Of a DNA stretch of 55,766 bases, positions 4,619 through 43,177 are shown piece after piece. The notes below the pieces were generated by a model. That model did not search any database, was not told the DNA's origin, and saw nothing but the letters and a program-made list of their open reading frames with translations. The stretch's first letter is position 1, and each line of letters opens with the position of its first letter. The position numbers and the translations under genes are program-made. Source of the stretch: a virus; IMG/VR virus record IMGVR_UViG_3300046171_000083, positions 1 through 55,766 of that record. One strand, given 5' to 3'.

Positions 4619-4822
4619 ATGAAATACATGAAAGATATTGTAGTATTAGTGCTTGCCGTAGGACTCATGGGTATACTTGGTTTAATTGTTTATGATGAGT
4701 TTAAAATGGCGAATGAGCATGGCGGAGAGCTTGATGAAAACATTATAGGTTTATTGCAAATGTCGATGACGGGTGTGATCGGAGTTGTTGGTGGCTATAT
4801 CGGTGGCAAGTCTAATGGCTGA
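4619..4822 (+). CDS. Small membrane protein of the lysis cassette
   Basis: A 67-aa protein with one clear N-terminal TM segment (residues 6-26, VVLVLAVGLMGILGLIV) and a second glycine-rich hydrophobic stretch at the C-terminus (MTGVIGVVGGYIGG). It starts two bases after the holin stop and overlaps the next gene. It could be a second holin or an antiholin. Confidence 0.6.
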   Translation: MKYMKDIVVLVLAVGLMGILGLIVYDEFKMANEHGGELDENIIGLLQMSMTGVIGVVGGYIGGKSNG

Positions 4823-5084
4823 TATGAAAATACCTGTTGCTCTAGTCTTTGCTATGGCTGTGCAATTAGTTGGCTTAGTGTGGTACATAAGCAACATCGT
4901 CCATGACATTGAACATCTTCAAGGTCAGGTATCAGCGCAACAAGATATTATTGATTTGTTGAATGATGATGTTAATGACCTTTGGGTATTCTGTACTTTT
5001 ACAGAGAACAAATGGGCAGAAGCCTACATAGACGATATGGTGTATGAACGTGTTTGTGGAACAAAAGAGGTTGTAAATGAGTGA
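4815..5084 (+). CDS. Membrane-anchored lysis-cassette protein, spanin-like candidate
   Basis: Start chosen at ATG 4815, overlapping the upstream stop, giving 89 aa. It has an N-terminal TM anchor (residues 6-24), then a heptad-like helix (IEHLQGQVSAQQDIIDLLND), an arrangement resembling an i-spanin (Rz). The C-terminal part (LWVFCTFTENKWAEAY...) is unusual, with two cysteines. It overlaps the endolysin gene by 8 bp. Spanin function is inference from topology and position. Confidence 0.55.
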   Translation: MADMKIPVALVFAMAVQLVGLVWYISNIVHDIEHLQGQVSAQQDIIDLLNDDVNDLWVFCTFTENKWAEAYIDDMVYERVCGTKEVVNE

Positions 5085-5685
5085 AGCATTAAAAACATTA
5101 CAGGAAAAGATAGGATCTTCACCTGACGGTGCGTTTGGTCCTAACACCGCAAAAAAGATTTGCGACCATTATGCTTTGAATCCAGAGCGTGGAGCGCACT
5201 TCTTAGGACAGCTTGTACACGAGAGTGGCACGTTTCGTTATACACAAGAAAACCTAAACTATAGCAAAGAGTCTATACTGGCAGTATTTGGTAAGTATTT
5301 TAAGTCAGAAAGCGATGCCGAAAGCTGTGCTCGAAACCCACAAGCTCTAGCTGACCGTGTGTACGGTGACAGGATGGGCAATGATGGACAGGGCTATCTG
5401 TGGCGTGGTCGAGGATTTTTACAATGCACGGGCAAAAATAACTATTCTCAGTTTGCGGCTGATATGAATTTGTCTGAAGTAATGGAAGATCCTGACTTAG
5501 TAGCCACTAAATTTCCTATGGAATCAGCCATCTGGTTCTTTAAAAGAAACAAATTGTGGGATATTTGTGATGAAGGTGTTAATGATGATACGATTAAACG
5601 TCTTACTAAACGTATCAACGGTGGTTATAACGGATTAAAGCACAGAAAAGAAGAAACTAAGAAGATTTATGAGTGGCTAAGATAA
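5077..5685 (+). CDS. Endolysin, GH19 chitinase-like (lysozyme superfamily)
   Basis: The 202-aa protein has a GH19-type core: HESG (HFLGQLVHESGTFRYTQENL, about residues 44-64) containing the catalytic Glu, YGDRMGNDGQGYLWRGRGFLQ at about 94-115, TGKNNYSQFA, and the late KRINGGYNGLKHR signature near 176-189. The N-terminal region with DGAFGPNTAK resembles the first part of a peptidoglycan-binding repeat. No signal peptide is present, which fits release through the upstream holin. It would cleave cell-wall glycan at lysis. Confidence 0.9.
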   Translation: MSEALKTLQEKIGSSPDGAFGPNTAKKICDHYALNPERGAHFLGQLVHESGTFRYTQENLNYSKESILAVFGKYFKSESDAESCARNPQALADRVYGDRMGNDGQGYLWRGRGFLQCTGKNNYSQFAADMNLSEVMEDPDLVATKFPMESAIWFFKRNKLWDICDEGVNDDTIKRLTKRINGGYNGLKHRKEETKKIYEWLR

Positions 5686-5756
5686 ATTAAGAGTGGCACT
5701 TTGAAATTGGAAATAGTATGCTAAAAATATATAAACTGCTTTGGATGTTTTAAAAT

Positions 5757-7689
5757 ATGTCTTTTTTTGCAAATTTATTAGGTAATTACATTACTGGTAG
5801 ACTTCTTGGAGGCAAAAAAGGCGGTAACATTGCTGCTCTTGGAACGGCGGGTTCTGCACTTTTTCAACAAGGGCTTGGTTCAGACGGTTTTAGTTTAGAA
5901 AGTTTGTTTGGTGGTGGGAAACAATCAGACCCTGTTACAAAAGCTGTTACTAATATGGTTGATCCAATTGTGCAAAAAGGGTCATCTGGACTTGCTAGTG
6001 CGGATGCTACCGCAAAAGCCGTTCAAGCCTCTAATGTTGCTAGAGATATAGCGCCTGTCTTTACTCAAGGCGAAGGAACACTTGGTTTTGCTAAAGCTTT
6101 AGTGGATAGTGGTATTATGAGTGAAGGTAAAGTAGCAGATTTTTTAAACACCAAAGCGGGAGAGGGTTTACTTAGCGGTCTTGGGGCTGAAGTATTGTCT
6201 ATGTTCAATAAAGACGATGAAGGATCAACGCCAGTAAGCAGACCATTTGGTGGTGAAGGAGATGTTAGAATTAATATCCCGAACAAATATGCGGCAGGGT
6301 GGTTATATAGATGATCAATATTTTCCAAGGCGTAACGGTGGTATCATGCCATCTGAGGGTTCAGGTCAAAAAGATGACGTTCCTGCTATGCTTATGGCAG
6401 GTGAATTTGTATTAACGAAAGACGCTGTAAAAGGTCTCGGTAACGGCGATTCAAATCGCGGCATTGAAAAAGCTTATTCAATGATGAACAAGTTAGAGAT
6501 AAGGCGGATAATTATGTCTAATGCAGATGAAATAGTAAGTAGACAGGTACAAGAGCAACGCCGCCCAGAATATATTGAACGTTTAGAAAAAGCTTTGCTT
6601 GGCGGTATATTCGGAACAGAGGCACAGAAAGATATTTATGATCCAGACGATCCAGAAAAGCTTCTTTACAAAAAGGGAACTATGTATGGTGGTCTTCTTC
6701 AAGACCCTAACAAGTTTAATGTTGCACCTTACCTACTAGCAGGTCAAACTGGTCGTGATGCGGAAACAGGAGCGATTACAGGTCTTGGTTTAGAAACGTT
6801 TGCTTCTCAAGCTTTAATGCAAGACGCAAATAATGATGGCGTTCCAGATTTTCTTGGCAGGTATCAGCCTTATTTTGAAACAGCGGGAGGAGCCGCTACT
6901 GGAGGGATAGAATCTTTTAGTCGTGGTCTTGGATCTTTAGGAGAAGCAAAAACACTTTTCGGTCCTGCGGCACAGTATGTTTCTGGCGGTAGAGGAATGT
7001 ATGATCCCAATGATTATGTAGAATCTTACATGAATCCATATACTGAAAATGTTATAGACTCAGTTGAAAAAGACATTGAAAGAACTGGAGATGTAGCTCG
7101 GAAAAGGGCTGCGGCTCAAGCTGTAGGATCAGGAGCTTTTGGTGGTTCAAGACAGGGAATACAATCAGCAGAAATTGAACGTAATATTCAAGATGCCAAA
7201 ACAAAAGCTTCATCAGATCTTCGTGCTAGAAATTACGATCAAGCGTTAAAGGCTTCACAAGATGCGTATCAACAGGGAGCAACTAGAGAATTAGAAGCAG
7301 GAAGGTTAATGGGTGGCTTGGGTCAATCATTAGGACAAATTGGTTCACAATATGGCAATATAGGTGGTCAGTATGGAACTTTAGCAGGCACAACCGCAGA
7401 TATTGGTCGTGTGTACTCAGCATTACAGCCTGCGGATCTTGCGTTTATGACAGGTGTGGGTGAAGCAGAACGTGGTTATCGTCAGAAAATGATAGATACA
7501 GCAAGACAAGAATATCAACGTCCAACAGAGCAGGCGTTGCTACCATATCAGTTTGCTTACGGTGCGCTTACAGGTACACCTTCAGCGGGAATTTACTCAC
7601 AAACTCAAGCAAGTTATGCGCCTCCTGCTAACCCATTCCTCTCTGGTCTTGGGGCTTACACAACGCTTCAGGGCATTAACCAACAATAA
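5757..7689 (+). CDS. Virion-associated protein, interrupted by a +1 shift near 6290
   Basis: Two frames join: 5757-6314 ends ...NKYAAGWLYR and 6247-7689 reads ...RQGGYIDDQYFPRRNGGIMP. Removing one G from the GGG at 6297-6299 yields NKYAAGGYIDDQYFPRRNGG, a continuous protein of about 643 aa. The KDDVPAMLMAGEFVLTKDAV motif downstream is a hallmark of a marine phage virion-associated family. The N-terminal part is Gly/Ala-rich; the C-terminal part has long helices (EIERNIQDAKTKASSDL...). It begins the block of large proteins after lysis and may be an internal or ejection protein; the function is not established. The indel is probably a sequence error. Confidence 0.7.
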
Positions 7690-18273: not shown

Positions 18274-20461
18274 ATGTCATTAAGAGTAGTTGGCAATACA
18301 ATATATGGTAGCAATCAAAAAGATTTAGTCGCTGAGATTACGGAGAAAGTTCCTTCATATGTACAGATCGAAGCACTAAAGAATGCCTACCCAAACGGAA
18401 GAGTTGTTCGGAATGAGTTCTATCTTGGCTCATTGTCAGGTGAGGCAGGGCAATCTCTTAAAATAAACATTGATCCATCAAGCCCAAACTTTATGCGCGG
18501 CATGGATTTCAATAGTGGTGACGGGATCGGGGGCATATCCAAGATTCTAATGGAGGCTTACAGGTGGAAGATCACTGATGTAGCCGAACATTTCTCTACG
18601 TTCTTAGATCGTCCCCAGGCAGAAGCGCCAATTAACCCGATTAACCCGAACAAGTTACAGCAGCCCCAGGAAGAACAACCCGAACAAGTCAAGCAAAAGC
18701 GGGTCATTGATATCAATACACCGCACGATGGTGAGTATTTCTACCTATCAACTGATGGGGAAGTCCTCGTAACGGTACGAAGATATATCGAAAGAGATCC
18801 AACGGGTGAAATTGTTCGGGATACGGACGGGAATACGAAGAAAGAGTTCCGCCAGTTTCCGCGTTTACCTGAAACCAGACCGCTTTATAACCTCCCTGAC
18901 ATTGCGCAATCAGATCGCGTAATATGGGTAGAGGGTGAGAAGTGCGCAGATGAGCTAACAAAACAAGGATACACAGCTACTTGTACTATCGGTGGTGCAG
19001 GGATGTTATCTCGTAATACAAAAGACAAGTTTGATTTCTCTCCATTGCAAGGCAGAGAGCTAATCATATGGCCTGATAATGACGATGCAGGTAAGAAATT
19101 AGCTAGGATAGTTCAAGAACTGGCTCAGAATGCAGGTGCAAAATCAATCACCATGCTCGTGCCACCGAAGGGAAAGCCTAAGAAGTGGGATGCCGCAGAT
19201 GCAATTGAAGAGGGATTTGATATTTCAAACTTTCTCAATGCGCCTACGCATAAGGTTAAAAAGGTATTATCTCTTAAAAACCAGAACTTGCTTATTACTC
19301 AGCAGTTTGTTGGTTCGGCTCCAGAGCAGAAGTTTTTGATTGGAGATACAATACCGCTTGGGGTACCAGTGGTGTTTCGCAGCCGCAGGGGATAGTGGTA
19401 AAGGCATGATGACGCTTGATCTAGCGATGAAGGTAGCATCGGGCGATGGTATGCAAAGCTCTTTCGGTGGTTTTGTTTCAAATCATGGCACATCAATAAT
19501 TTTATCAGCAGAAGATGACAAAGATGAGATCCACAGACGGATCAGCAGGCTAGATCCCCTGAACAAACGTTCGGGTTATGAGCATGATTGTATCATTGTG
19601 CCGCTGCCGAACGAAGGCGGTGTGTTTCCAATTATGATGAAAGTAGACAATACATACGCAACATCACCAGAATTTGAAAAGATATACGAAGAAATGTTGG
19701 AGATTGAAGACCTTGCGTTAGTTGTTATTGATCCAATGGCATCATTTGTGCATGCAGATGTAAACGCTGATCCCGCCGCAGGTGCAGCATTCATGGGTTT
19801 GTTGGCTCAAATATCCACAGAGACAGGCGCAACAGTCATGGTAAACCACCATATGGCGAAGGTAAGCGACAATGACTTTATAGACTCGCCAGAGAAGGCT
19901 CGTAATAAAATTAGAGGTACGTCTGCGATTGTGGACGGTGTAAGATGCGCCTTCTCTGTATGGCAAGTGGATGAGCCTACAGCTAAGTCACGCTGTAAAG
20001 ACTTACAAGTTCCATACACAAGAAACGCTGTGTTTGACGGTGCAGTGGTAAAAGCAAACGGTCCTGCAAATCGGGAGATAAGACACTTTATTCGTAACCC
20101 AGATACTGGTCTGTTAGAAGATAGAAGTATAGACATACGAAATTTTGCTATGTCTCAAGCCGTTCGGGAAAGAATAGAGTATGTCTTTAATTTTATTAGA
20201 ATTCGAGAGGATCGCGGCATTCCTGTTACTAAGGGTGGTATGCATGATGGTATTTTTGATGCCATCAGAACAGCGCCAAATGATGACATAAACGCAGGAA
20301 ACCTTAGAAATGCGGTAGGAGAAAGTACAATTAAAAAGGCTGTGACTACGTTGCAAAACGATGGACGTATTGACCAGTTTAAACGAAACAGAAGTGGGCC
20401 TCGTAAATGGCTTGGTGTTGTCGGGGGTCAATTAAATCAAGAGGAAGATATACTTGACTAG
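18274..20461 (+). CDS. TOPRIM primase fused to RecA/RepA-type helicase, interrupted by a +1 shift near 19378
   Basis: The first frame (18274-19395) has a TOPRIM domain: VIWVEGEKCADEL (about residue 210), TIGGAGML and ELIIWPDNDDAGKK with the DxD metal site. The second frame (to 20461) begins with Walker A AAAGDSGKGMM and continues with a RepA/AAA_25 core: SIILSAEDD and Walker B LALVVIDP, then VNHHM. Deleting one T of the TTT at 19376-19378 fuses VPVVF to AAAGDSGKG, giving about 728 aa. It would prime and unwind DNA at the fork. The split falls in the middle of the ATPase fold, so the intact phage almost certainly makes one protein; the indel is probably a sequence error. Confidence 0.85.
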
Positions 20462-20969: not shown

Positions 20970-21003
20970 AAAAAAAAGCGGGATAAATCCCGCTAATTTT
21001 TTT
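20970..21003. terminator. Bidirectional terminator between convergent operons
   Basis: AGCGGGAT (20977-20984) and ATCCCGCT (20987-20994) form a perfect 8-bp stem with an A-run before and a T-run after, so it can end transcription from both sides. It separates the + replication operon from the - operon carrying the guide-RNA-like array. The segment 20886-20969 holds only one AATTGTTCGGGTT-like motif and no gene. Confidence 0.85.
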
Positions 21004-21151: not shown

Positions 21152-21360
21152 GGCCTCACTTTCGGCTTAACAAGTTTATTAGATGCAACCTCAGTTCCTT
21201 TGCAATGTATCAACACCGAATCATGTTGGCTTTCCATCATAAAATACATAGCTTCTTTGCTATAACTACAATCGTCATAGCTTTTAAATAGTATGTTGTG
21301 TGTTACCTGTTCGCCTTGAACAAAGTAACTTAACACCATGAACGTAAAATATTTAATCAT
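21148..21360 (-). CDS. Small secreted or membrane-anchored protein
   Basis: ATG 21360 overlaps the HTH gene stop as TGATG. The 70-aa product has a hydrophobic N-terminus (MIKYFTFMVLSYFVQG) compatible with a signal peptide, then a polar domain with two cysteines (DDCSYSKEA, LIHCKGTEV) that could form a disulphide in the periplasm. Function unknown. Confidence 0.55.
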   Translation of the reverse strand: MIKYFTFMVLSYFVQGEQVTHNILFKSYDDCSYSKEAMYFMMESQHDSVLIHCKGTEVASNKLVKPKVRP

Positions 21361-21737
21361 CAATTCACTCCCATTCTTTTGTCTTCAGCCTCGTATTGAG
21401 CCTTCTCTAATCGGTCAATCCAGTTCTGCAAAGTCTGGTAATTAGAAAAACCAAGCAAGTCAGCAGCCTCAGATAAAGTTTTTGTTTTAGTCAATGCTCT
21501 CTCAATATAGTTACGCTTAACCCTCTCAAGCGCAGCGTTCATATCGAAATCATCGGGGTCATCAACAAACGAACCATCGGGCATGTCGCCATCTGGGTTA
21601 GCGTCACGCCATTCATCGTTCACGCCAATGTTGTGCCTGATTTCTTCCATAAACTCTCGTAAGTCAGTTTCGGTCTTAATACCGCCCAACCGCTCAAGTG
21701 TGTAATGCATACACATCGTATCATCTGCAATAGACAT
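21360..21737 (-). CDS. Fis/NtrC-C-terminal-type helix-turn-helix protein coupled to the Tas-like gene
   Basis: Start is ATG 21737, seven bases after AAGGAGG; it shares a TAATG overlap with the Tas-like stop. The 125-aa protein has an acidic middle (DGSFVDDPDDFD) and a C-terminal HTH: RNYIERALTKTKTLSEAADL followed by LGFSNYQTLQNWIDRL, matching the Fis/HTH_8 pattern (EAAxLLG turn, then recognition helix). Tight coupling to the Tas-like gene suggests a joint role, for example regulating array expression or aiding DNA binding; that link is inference. Confidence 0.65.
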   Translation of the reverse strand: MSIADDTMCMHYTLERLGGIKTETDLREFMEEIRHNIGVNDEWRDANPDGDMPDGSFVDDPDDFDMNAALERVKRNYIERALTKTKTLSEAADLLGFSNYQTLQNWIDRLEKAQYEAEDKRMGVN

Positions 21738-22444
21738 TATGCTACCTCCTTCCATTCTTTGTATAAATCTTTAACCAAACGCTTTGTCATATAACGTAAG
21801 GCTCTGTTATGCGCATGACCGTCTGTTTCAACTCTCTCACGCTCCATAATCTTACGCTTATCGTACACCATTCTGTATGGCCCTGCATTTTCTTCTTTGC
21901 CTTGAGCCTTGAGAAGACTGTCGCCAATTGTCCAAAATACCGCATGCCTTGAGGGGCTATAGCCGTGAACCAATGCCATTTCAGCATTGCTGTGCTTACG
22001 CTGTCGTTCTCCATCAATCACGGCAAGTCCTGCACGTTTATAAATACCGTCCAGTTCTTTCTCATAAGCCATGAAGTCGCCAACTTCTCCGACAATACCT
22101 GCCAAGCCCAAATGACCAAAGCCTCTAACTTTGTCTACAAAAGTTGCAACAGGTAATTCTTTTGCTAAGTCAGATAACCACTTTTCAAAACCCGCTCTAC
22201 TTTTTAACAAAGGTTCTCTGGCATCAAACAATGGTTTTGTTGCAGCCATAAGCTCAATTGAGCCTTCTCCTTTTTTCAAAGCAACAAATAATTTGTTTGC
22301 TGCTTTAATCTCACCATCTGCAAAACCTCTACAGATAGCTTTAATTTGCAAAACTAATTTACCTTCAGCGCGAACCATATTTTGACGGTTGCGCCATGTT
22401 CGATAAATCATTGCGATAGTCGGGTCTTCATATCTTGTATCCAT
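21737..22444 (-). CDS. Tas-like (TasA-type) Nop-domain guide-RNA-binding protein, no nuclease domain visible
   Basis: A 235-aa protein starts at ATG 22444, seven bases after AAGGAG (22452-22457), directly downstream of the repeat array. Residues 1-100 are helical. Residues 106-124, VRGFGHLGLAGIVGEVGDF, match the conserved G-x-G...GE-GD helix-turn element shared by Nop56/58-type domains and the IS110 C-terminal (Transposase_20) domain; GYSPSRHAVFWTIGDSL (161-177) and GPYRMVYDKRK (188-198) continue it, and HAHNRALRYMTKRLVKDLY (210-228) closes it. I see no RuvC DEDD set and no HNH motif. In TIGR-Tas systems, Nop-domain Tas proteins bind the array RNA; nuclease-free members are known as TasA. The assignment rests on motif pattern plus array adjacency, not on a search. 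The alternative is a degenerate IS110-type transposase, but no catalytic N-terminal domain or transposon ends are present. Confidence 0.8.
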   Translation of the reverse strand: MDTRYEDPTIAMIYRTWRNRQNMVRAEGKLVLQIKAICRGFADGEIKAANKLFVALKKGEGSIELMAATKPLFDAREPLLKSRAGFEKWLSDLAKELPVATFVDKVRGFGHLGLAGIVGEVGDFMAYEKELDGIYKRAGLAVIDGERQRKHSNAEMALVHGYSPSRHAVFWTIGDSLLKAQGKEENAGPYRMVYDKRKIMERERVETDGHAHNRALRYMTKRLVKDLYKEWKEVA

Positions 22445-22463
22445 ATTGGATCTCCTTGGTTGC

Positions 22464-23241
22464 GAGGCGACTACGTTGTGGCATTGCTGCGTGTCGTCGA
22501 TAGCCTCTGGTTATATTGGGCGCTCAGGGACTGGCATTTCTGCGGATTGAGTTTGGCCCAAATCTGGTGGGAGCGCCCTCTAAAAGACATTGCTGCGTAC
22601 CTATAGCGGCTCCCATAAATTAATAGAAAAGGGAGAAACAGTAGCGGCTTGATGAGCGTACAAATTATGTCCTTTCCTAACTGGTGGGAGAGTGCAATCC
22701 CCGTGACATTGCTGTGGGTCTCTTCTGACCCTCCCATAAACTGGTGGGGAAGGGTGAACCATGAATGGCATTTCTGCGGGGCCATGATGACCCTTCCCTT
22801 GAGAGCGGTAGCGCATTGGCATTTCTGCGTTTGATCCTTGGCTCTCGTAAATAAGTGGGAGCGATCATAGATGGGCATTGCTGCGTGGTAACAAAGGCTC
22901 CCGTAAACTGGTGGGGAAGGGCGACTCCGCCTTGGCATAGCCGCGCTTTTTGATTGACCCTTCCCTTGGGAGCGTTCCTCCATAGGCATTACTGCGCAGT
23001 CATGATGGCTCCCGTAAACTGATCGGGAAGGGTGTTTGTTACGTGGCATCTCTGAGATAAAGCCGTGACCCTTCCCTTGAGAGCGAGTGACCCTTGGCAT
23101 TTCTGCGCTGACTCTCTGGCTCTCGTAAACTAATCGGGAAGGGTGATTTAAGATTGACACTGCTGTGTGATTAGGATGACCCTTCCCTAACTGGTGGGAG
23201 CGTGCGCTGTGTAGCATTGCTGCGATATTCAAGTGGCTCCC
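22464..23241 (-). repeat. TIGR-like guide RNA array, 14 units
   Basis: Fourteen units share the + strand plan arm-G-N9-T-GGCATTnCTGCG-N9-T-G-arm. Cores start at 22480, 22533, 22586, 22646, 22705, 22767, 22818, 22874, 22934, 22985, 23045, 23096, 23156 and 23213, 51-62 bp apart. Left and right variable segments are always 10 nt (9 plus a usual T: 10/14 left, 12/14 right). Arms pair and covary: GGGAGC/GCTCCC, GAGAGC/GCTCTC, GGGAAGGGT/ACCCTTCCC, TTGGGC/GCCCAA, GAGGC/GCCTC. On the - strand the core reads C-GCA-GNAA-UGC-C, a GNRA tetraloop hairpin. Variable pairs (+ strand) by unit: 1 actacgttg/tgtcgtcga; 2 ctcagggac/gattgagtt; 3 ccctctaaa/tacctatag; 4 aaacagtag/tacaaatta; 5 caatccccg/ggtctcttc; 6 aaccatgaa/gggccatga; 7 gtagcgcat/tttgatcct; 8 atcatagat/tggtaacaa; 9 actccgcct/ctttttgat; 10 ttcctccat/cagtcatga; 11 tttgttacg/ataaagccg; 12 agtgaccct/ctgactctc; 13 atttaagat/tgattagga; 14 tgcgctgtg/atattcaag. 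Flanking genes are all on the - strand, so the transcript is leftward. Confidence 0.9.
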
Positions 23242-23249
23242 ATATAACA

Positions 23250-23789
23250 TTACGATACCATCACATCCGTATGGATGGCCTCTACATCTTCAATCTTCCA
23301 AACATCCCGAACAATTTTACCTTCGGGCATCTTCTCCAAGATCGCAGATAAAAACTTATGATTACGTTTGTGCGTACTCATCTTGCCATGCTCTCGCTTA
23401 ACAACAATCTCTAAATCGCTTTTAGTTGCATCTCCAAGAGCAATACCCAATTCGGGTAATGCAAAGTAATCAAAGATATTCTTGGCATAATTAACAGCCG
23501 TATTCTTCAAAGACACATTCGGGGTAGAATGTTCGCCCTTCTTTAATAAAACCTGCTTTGAAATCTTTTCAGCCTGACGCTTAAAACTAATTCGGTTTGT
23601 TCTTGATCTGGCGCTTACATCTTCAGATGCAATGCGTTGCAAATAACGTGCGGTAGCCGCATCACGCAAATCTTTATCATTACGCAACATATTAAGATAC
23701 TTTTCAGCAGCTTGCTTTTGCGTCTTTGAGTTTTCCCAAGCCTTTTCAATGGCCTCTAAAACAATCGGGTTTCTACTTTGATAAGTCAT
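23250..23789 (-). CDS. Unknown basic helical protein abutting the array, candidate TIGR partner
   Basis: The 179-aa protein (MTYQSRNPIVLEAIEKAWEN...) is rich in Lys/Arg and helical over residues 1-105 (QKQAAEKYLNMLRNDKDLRD, SFKRQAEKISKQVLL), then more mixed (DYFALPELGIALGDATKSDL...). Its stop is 8 bp from the first transcribed array unit, and its start overlaps the upstream zinc-knuckle gene. I recognise no family. The placement immediately 5-prime of the array transcript makes it a candidate array-associated protein; a DNA- or RNA-binding role is only suggested by its charge. Confidence 0.6.
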   Translation of the reverse strand: MTYQSRNPIVLEAIEKAWENSKTQKQAAEKYLNMLRNDKDLRDAATARYLQRIASEDVSARSRTNRISFKRQAEKISKQVLLKKGEHSTPNVSLKNTAVNYAKNIFDYFALPELGIALGDATKSDLEIVVKREHGKMSTHKRNHKFLSAILEKMPEGKIVRDVWKIEDVEAIHTDVMVS

Positions 23790-42571: not shown

Positions 42572-42715
42572 GTTTTTCTCCCTAATTAATGTTTTGATTT
42601 TATATAATTAAGATTAAAAACACTATCTCTTTCTTTTTGTTAAATATGTGGTATTGTGTGGTTATCCCTGACAGCGGCATTGGGCTGCTGACACAACCCA
42701 AGACAGGAGATTGAC

Positions 42716-43177
42716 ATGGGTATTACTACTTTTTCTGGCCCTATAAAGGCAGGAACAATCAAAAATACAACAGGAACAACTCTTGGTTCTGACATTGCAA
42801 ATGTCGGTCAAGTTGTTATGGCACAAACATTTTCAGCAGATTTATCTGGCGGTGCATTAGCCGCGTCTGTTACAAACGTTGTTATTCCTGCAAACTCTCA
42901 GATAATTGACTGTGTTATTGATGTTATTACTGCTGCCAACGCAACAACAAATTTGAGCATCGGTGATACTGTAGGTGGCGCTGCTACTATTTTAAACACG
43001 TTTGCAAGCGGAACAACTGCGGGTCGTAAATATCCAACTACAGAAGCAGGCGCTGCATTAGCTTGGCAAGACACAGGAACAGCGGATATTCGTTTGACTG
43101 TTACTGCTTCTGCCGCAACAAATGCGGGTTTAGTTCGTTTTACAATTCTGTATCAGCAAAACAATAACCTAGCGTAA
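42716..43177 (+). CDS. Head fibre/decoration-like structural protein
   Basis: A 153-aa Ala/Thr/Gly-rich beta protein (MGITTFSGPIKAGTIKNTTG...) containing NVVIPANSQIIDCVIDVITA and DIRLTVTASAATNAGLVRFT. Start follows AGGAGATTGAC. Such proteins follow the capsid gene in marine phages. Surface decoration is inferred. The 144 bp upstream (42572-42715) hold no gene but must contain its promoter. Confidence 0.65.
   Translation: MGITTFSGPIKAGTIKNTTGTTLGSDIANVGQVVMAQTFSADLSGGALAASVTNVVIPANSQIIDCVIDVITAANATTNLSIGDTVGGAATILNTFASGTTAGRKYPTTEAGAALAWQDTGTADIRLTVTASAATNAGLVRFTILYQQNNNLA

Follow-up and report, generated by a model that had tools for sequence, protein, structure and literature searches.

Stem-loop arrays of tandem interspaced guide RNA (TIGR) type have been described together with the nuclease-less protein TasA by Faure et al. 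(2025; PMC12045711, Fig. 7). In this class, variable palindromic stems replace the edge repeats, and arrays with a loop of conserved length and sequence are among those presented. Here, we analysed a stretch of 55,766 nt (55.8 kb; the window) from a marine phage, positions 1 to 55,766 of IMG/VR record IMGVR_UViG_3300046171_000083, in which tandem hairpins fill positions 22459–23246 between a tas gene and a second gene, u179. The kind of this locus is already known, namely a stem-loop TIGR array with TasA (PMC12045711), and we assign it to that class with near certainty. While palindromic stems, the lack of edge repeats, and a nuclease-less TasA are shared with the described stem-loop arrays, the loop of the present array forms a hairpin of 3 bp with a GNRA tetraloop, the spacers are almost uniformly 9 nt long, and an array of about 8–14 units lies between tas and an obligatory partner gene. 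Furthermore, the 3' ends of the two spacers show complementarity, whereas PMC12045711 reports no obvious covariation among its own spacers and natural targets that were hard to identify.

A covariance model (CM) derived from 40 units that belong to other phages, with a tas at most 86% identical to that of the window, found 13 units at 22463–23241, all on the minus strand (expectation values (E) of 4e-7 to 3e-4), while the best further match within the window had E=0.63. The repeats that an earlier note, made from the letters alone, had placed here were thus recovered with a model made from relatives only. Its count of 14 units also stands, since a unit with a variant loop (unit 4) shares the stem and the two 9-nt segments with the 13 canonical ones. 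The features of the array are:

22459..23246, minus strand, stem-loop TIGR array of 14 units (13 canonical, 1 variant)
22463..22508, minus strand, unit 1, spacers TCGACGACA and CAACGTAGT, CM E=4.9e-6
22516..22561, minus strand, unit 2, spacers AACTCAATC and GTCCCTGAG, CM E=2.1e-6
22569..22614, minus strand, unit 3, spacers CTATAGGTA and TTTAGAGGG, CM E=1.3e-5
22624..22679, minus strand, unit 4 with variant loop CG-CTCATCAAG-CCG, spacers TAATTTGTA and CTACTGTTT, from fold and recurrence
22688..22733, minus strand, unit 5, spacers GAAGAGACC and CGGGGATTG, CM E=1.2e-4
22750..22795, minus strand, unit 6, spacers TCATGGCCC and TTCATGGTT, CM E=3.8e-7
22801..22846, minus strand, unit 7, spacers AGGATCAAA and ATGCGCTAC, CM E=4.1e-7
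22857..22902, minus strand, unit 8, spacers TTGTTACCA and ATCTATGAT, CM E=3e-5, the pair most widely shared in the window's clade
22917..22962, minus strand, unit 9, spacers ATCAAAAAG and AGGCGGAGT, CM E=3.4e-4
22968..23013, minus strand, unit 10, spacers TCATGACTG and ATGGAGGAA, CM E=3.1e-6
23028..23073, minus strand, unit 11, spacers CGGCTTTAT and CGTAACAAA, CM E=2.4e-4
23079..23124, minus strand, unit 12, spacers GAGAGTCAG and AGGGTCACT, CM E=3.6e-6
23139..23184, minus strand, unit 13, spacers TCCTAATCA and ATCTTAAAT, CM E=1.1e-4
23196..23241, minus strand, unit 14, spacers CTTGAATAT and CACAGCGCA, CM E=9.4e-6

Read on the minus strand, a canonical unit consists of a stem of 4–9 bp, a box C (YCA), the 9-nt spacer A, a box D (CR; CG, CA, sometimes UG), a CA-GNRA-TG hairpin, a second YCA, the 9-nt spacer B, a second CR, and the closing stem, with the GNRA tetraloop capping the 3-bp hairpin between the two spacer halves. 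This corresponds to the layout of TIGR arrays (box C/9 nt/box D/loop/box C/9 nt/box D). Once the boxes were set apart, each of the 13 canonical units had variable segments of 9+9 nt, a length also seen, along with the YCA and CR boxes, in some 290 distinct units of the window and its relatives. The 10–10 nt segments of the earlier note have to be corrected accordingly, and the near-constant T that it counted with the 9 nt corresponds, when the minus strand is read, to the A of box C. Its order of spacer A, loop, and spacer B was right, but the edge repeats it named are variable palindromic stems; as the array is of the stem-loop class, RNAs of roughly 36 nt, which it expected, are not to be expected. 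Unit 4 recurs nearly unchanged in close relatives (L001–L003 and L006–L012), while its neighbouring units change. A variant unit of this type occurs twice in L006 and in L007.

Pairing and covariation in the array are far beyond chance. Stem cells were paired in 97.5% of cases, cells with double changes numbered 51 as compared to 12 in shuffles, and double changes were seen in seven of the nine base pairs of the unit structure. For the pair that joins box C to box D, 293 distinct units gave C-G (175), U-A (64), U-G (47), and C-A (3); for the loop pair, they gave G-C (229), A-U (29), G-U (23), and A-C (1). Taking both pairs together, a minus-strand reading gives 70 wobbles and the other strand four, so that the guide RNA lies on the minus strand, co-oriented with tas and the upstream gene, and a plus-strand RNA was rejected. 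These data also bear on a reading of the array as hairpins other than guides (attenuators, packaging or repetitive extragenic palindromic-like repeats) or as a coding repeat. An open frame of 259 amino acids (aa) does cross the array on the minus strand (22471–23250), but stem and loop pairs covary, the spacers of fixed 9-nt length are hypervariable while the boxes are near-invariant and match Tas boxes, and the locus always lies beside tas, leaving this reading with a negligible chance.

The protein encoded next to the array places it in the Tas family:

21737..22444, minus strand, tasA-like gene of 235 aa with the C-terminal (Nop-type) region of TasR and no RuvC or HNH domain, from profile matches

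Its residues 69–233 aligned with residues 140–295 of TasR chain 9mty_A from PDB (hmmsearch, E=7.1e-12); entry 9MTY, the accession given in PMC12045711, is the cryo-electron microscopy structure of TasR. Further matches were found to NCBIfam NF052498 (TIGR_Tas_endo; E=1.2e-21, 77.7 bits, below the cut-off of 100) and to phrog_4285, labelled 'transposase' (1.1e-13). TasR residues 1–139 had no significant match in the 235-aa protein, and profile searches found no RuvC or HNH nuclease domain in it; since the nuclease part is missing, the protein is TasA-like. The Tas-like Nop-domain gene that the earlier note saw 20 bp from the array was retained as to distance (about 15–20 bp to the tas start at 22444) and TasR homology. 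As the Pfam Nop model (PF01798) did not match, the 'Nop' label rests on homology to TasR (9MTY), and the AlphaFold model is weak (mean predicted local distance difference test (pLDDT) of 62, with Nop5 and TasH among weak fold matches).

Together with the box and spacer layout, the TasR homology supports the initial call of a TIGR array rather than one of clustered regularly interspaced short palindromic repeats (CRISPR). CRISPR arrays likewise carry variable guides in fixed scaffolds, but here there are no direct repeats of 25–36 nt and no Cas genes, and each unit has two split 9-nt spacers. The dual-repeat TIGR-TasR/TasH systems share the homologous Nop-type region, the CCA box C, and 9-nt spacers, and in both a base pair closes each box C/D set (G-C in TasR, R-Y with covariation here). 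In contrast to these, box D here is CR instead of UG, RuvC and HNH are absent, and stems replace edge repeats. IS110 elements with their bridge RNA have a related RNA-binding region and two guides for opposite strands; the NCBIfam IS110 model matched part of the 235-aa protein weakly (E=0.0066, 15.6 bits against a cut-off of 140). However, this protein lacks the DEDD transposase domain, and an array of many guides stands against a single bridge RNA.

The second protein of the locus is encoded directly upstream of the array:

23250..23789, minus strand, u179, partner gene of 179 aa, from conservation across loci

In all 54 loci with enough sequence, u179 was found in this position, unlike the other neighbours of the locus, which vary between relatives, and none of the loci L001–L220 carried it without tas. 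It diverges faster than tas, with 37–49% identity where tas has 71–83%. Pfam, PHROG, NCBIfam, PADLOC, PDB, and fold searches gave no match for u179 (structure model with mean pLDDT 70). The TasA-TasParB loci of PMC12045711 also have a second protein in the tas operon. TasParB, however, carries ParB domains and goes with dual-repeat arrays, while for u179 neither ParB nor any other family gave a match, and a search of Pfam, PHROGs, and PDB with u179 and 29 relatives yielded no ParB-like match. Judged by its conservation, u179 is a dedicated partner of the tas-array locus.

A search of IMG/VR revealed 55 loci with a tas 71–100% identical to that of the window, plus a few more. Readable arrays were obtained from 61 loci (44 distinct), one per locus with about 8–14 units between u179 and tas, giving 282 distinct spacer pairs, of which 275 consist of two 9-nt spacers (9+9). 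Based on portal and capsid, the phage of the window groups with HTVC023P, HTVC027P, DSL-LC04, and CRP-901/902, none of which showed a tas match. Neither were close tas relatives found in bacterial genomes and plasmids, nor an array in helicase-bearing relatives without tas. A distant tas homologue (34%), surrounded by hairpins with CCA/CG boxes, was detected in Rhizobium phage RHph_X2_25 (L056, MW960032.1). Its hairpins lie at 4652–4704, 5346–5385, and 5676–5722 and its genes at 4735–5334 and 5746–6801; the Tas-like protein has 351 aa and is unannotated, the upstream gene shows a weak likeness to u179 (12% probability, E=0.0024), and the cultured host is known.

While L001, from another sample, carries the same array as the window except for one linker base, spacers were swapped between phages whose tas and u179 are 97–100% identical. 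Of the window's 13 canonical spacer pairs, only 2, 4, and 3 are also present in L002, L004, and L007, respectively (tas 98–100%, u179 97–99% identical to the window), though stems and linkers are kept at many slots. As the variable segments differ among near-identical phages, the finding that would have refuted the earlier note's reading, identical segments in relatives, did not appear. Conversely, identical spacer pairs in near-identical stems occur across phages with only 71% tas identity (L007/L048 and L002/L058), which suggests that units may be exchanged between phages. This turnover argues against an action of TIGR-TasA on the phage's own or the host genome (gene control, replication, packaging, or help for an integrase), as near-complete spacer difference in near-identical phages does not allow a fixed self-target. 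Moreover, no guide of the window matched its own 55.8 kb with fewer than three mismatches, just like re-paired spacers, so that no self-target was found within the window. In favour of own or host use are the TasA without nuclease, the constancy of unit 4 while others change, and the fact that regulation and integrase aid are raised in PMC12045711; on balance, we consider it unlikely.

A hint on how the guides are read came from the last positions of the two spacers (A9 and B9). They were Watson-Crick complementary in 138 of the 275 9+9 pairs (z=9.0), once redundancy was removed, in 95 of 187 pairs (z=7.9) as compared to an expectation of 46, and in 35 of 71 at a harsher redundancy cut (z=4.7). 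Among all 81 spacer position pairs, A9-B9 was the only one clearly departing from independence. The signal was present in all five clades (z of 4.3, 3.5, 2.1, 3.3, and 5.0), and the spacer ends were complementary in six of the seven pairs containing a 10-nt spacer as well. The C-5 cleavage rule of TasR, taken with its 8-nt 3' overhangs (PMC12045711), lets us derive that TasR targets read A and then the reverse complement of B on one strand. With complementary ends, A and the reverse complement of B would overlap by 1 bp and form one 17-bp site; the two spacers then probably read opposite strands of one double-stranded target and meet in a shared base pair.

Alternatively, A9-B9 might be an RNA-RNA contact inside the guide, with the spacer 3' ends near the symmetry axis and no target base pair in common. 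Homology points to a pseudo-symmetric guide with equivalent 3' ends, complementarity is limited to half of the pairs, and there is no clear depletion of G-T/T-G cells (20 of 187). However, A9 and B9 are not in a nested hairpin position, there is no clear G-U excess, and candidate targets of complementary pairs fit the 1-bp overlap and not a gap of 0 or 1, so that such a contact appears doubtful. Guides that direct RNA modification or binding are less plausible by far. Box C/D motifs and a Nop-type protein do resemble small nucleolar ribonucleoproteins (PMC12045711), but the neighbourhood of the locus showed no fibrillarin-like gene, DNA is bound by those few relatives that have been studied biochemically (PMC12045711), and two 9-nt halves with complementary ends point to two strands. 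A two-strand reading of DNA by the guide pairs seems quite likely; the A9-B9 pattern and the candidate targets both fit A followed by the reverse complement of B.

Concerning targets, four guides were scanned over IMG/VR. The guide 17-mer TGAATAGCCATCTTCGT gave 91 matches, including 38 marine contigs and 50 enterobacterial prophages. All 38 marine contigs matched exactly and at one homologous site, the start codon of tail genes beginning MAIQ, and nearly all share tail genes with the phage family of the window. In L231–L320, e.g., L264:9603 (plus strand), the tail genes of many marine phages share the almost invariant start TAATAGTGGAAGGACACGAAGATGGCTATTCAA, followed by unrelated sequences as in a modular tail-gene joint; roseophage CRP-227 has an altered form. 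Guide CTACAGGTGCAACTGGT gave at least 120 matches, with exact ones in at least 80 contigs among those listed, and all of these encode the collagen-like TGATG repeat of tail fibres. Neither the window nor the tas loci nor the relatives L061–L220 yielded repeats of this type. In 84 kb of collagen-like repeats, three further pairs (two independent) matched with at most one base off (QGPTG twice, PQGNTG), while 40 re-pairings of spacers gave a mean of 0.1 matches and a maximum of 1. Apart from a single mismatch, which falls on a third codon position, a guide of L004–L006 matched the NRDWG motif of T7-like capsid genes in the roseophages CRP-227, CRP-171, and CRP-113. Among 14 marine phages in culture (0.6 Mb), a collection partly picked because of one of its matches, four guide families had matches with at most one base off in the overlap register, whereas a gap of 0 or 1 gave none. 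The guide of the Rhizobium phage had no match in cultured phages, at uncertain sensitivity.

Several apparent signals were rejected. An excess of 2-bp-gap matches in relatives (four pairs) was lost against distinct-pair counts and shuffles, as was an overlap-1 excess in the nearest relatives against matched controls. A general bias of guides towards start codons or ribosome sites was not found, and collagen-type GG-9-GG spacing as a general guide property (8 against 6 expected) was not significant. Larger searches of relatives stayed at control level. Overall, the target statistics are suggestive, coherent but not conclusive, and the matches suggest that at least some guides may be aimed at structural genes of rival phages.

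Taken together, we take this marine phage, which is of the HTVC023P/CRP-901 kind, to carry a stem-loop TIGR-TasA system that works as follows, an overall reading to which we give a probability of roughly 60%. The strip of u179, array, and tas would be read leftwards as one transcript, and each hairpin would be released as one guide with two 9-nt spacers. By homology to TasR, each half of a symmetric Tas dimer would accommodate one set of box C (YCA) and box D (CR), with spacer A pairing with one target strand and spacer B with the other. Going by A9-B9, many guides would recognise one 17-bp site, with the central base pair shared between the two spacers. Because TasA has no nuclease, it would most likely bind and bend the target and block its use, like catalytically dead CRISPR proteins, rather than cut it. 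The target would lie in the genome of a second phage present in the same cell, with u179 as a dedicated partner in the system, and the fast spacer turnover is proposed to arise because rivals differ. For a use against rival phages as such, the chances are about even. The most specific version, in which the guide repertoire silences structural genes of rivals (tail-gene starts, collagen-like fibre repeats, T7-like capsid) without cutting, via 17-bp sites and with u179 being essential, is put forward tentatively.

A number of observations weigh against this explanation. TasR gave no phage protection in E. coli (PMC12045711), about half of the spacer pairs lack A9-B9 complementarity, and spacer variants show no codon-phase pattern. 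The enterobacterial prophage cluster matched by TGAATAGCCATCTTCGT is presumably due to chance, and the other two guides scanned over IMG/VR remained at chance level, one with nine scattered matches in eight clusters and one with a single match. Furthermore, one of 20 re-pairings also reached four families in the 14 cultured phages. Matches were at or near the shuffled level when guides were compared with 2.3 Mb of relatives or with six cultured relatives, and likewise for the other guides against the 38 tail contigs.

Apart from the locus, some further features were observed in the window:

20977..20994, strand not assigned, terminator-like hairpin at the end of the leftward gene run, from a consensus scan only

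Downstream of tas (21360–21755, minus strand), a small protein with a Fis-type helix-turn-helix is encoded, which matches the C-terminal helix-turn-helix of the PADLOC RtcR-like model (E=8e-10) and occurs in only part of the relatives. Two overlapping plus-strand frames (18274–19395 and 19340–20461) match the first and second part of the phrog_239 primase/helicase family and constitute a split or frameshifted gene. Slightly downstream of the capsid gene, the Rfam Mu-gpT-DE RNA (RF03012) was detected at 42666–42718 (plus strand, 69.1 bits); in the related phage CRP-902, the capsid gene is annotated as Mu-like gpT.

In the literature searched, the supplement of the founding paper aside, we found no earlier description of such a loop, of the dedicated partner, of complementary spacer ends, or of the population data. 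Natural targets, the origin of guides, and the role of TIGR systems, of TasA especially, are named as open questions in PMC12045711. With about 60 natural loci and 275 distinct spacer pairs from one Tas lineage, these questions become directly testable. The loci indicate in which register the guides are probably read, point to a specific partner protein, show how spacers turn over, and supply a short list of phage genes as candidate targets, including genes of cultured phages. If rivals are indeed silenced via 17-bp sites, these would be the first natural TIGR targets and the first natural guide register to be identified.
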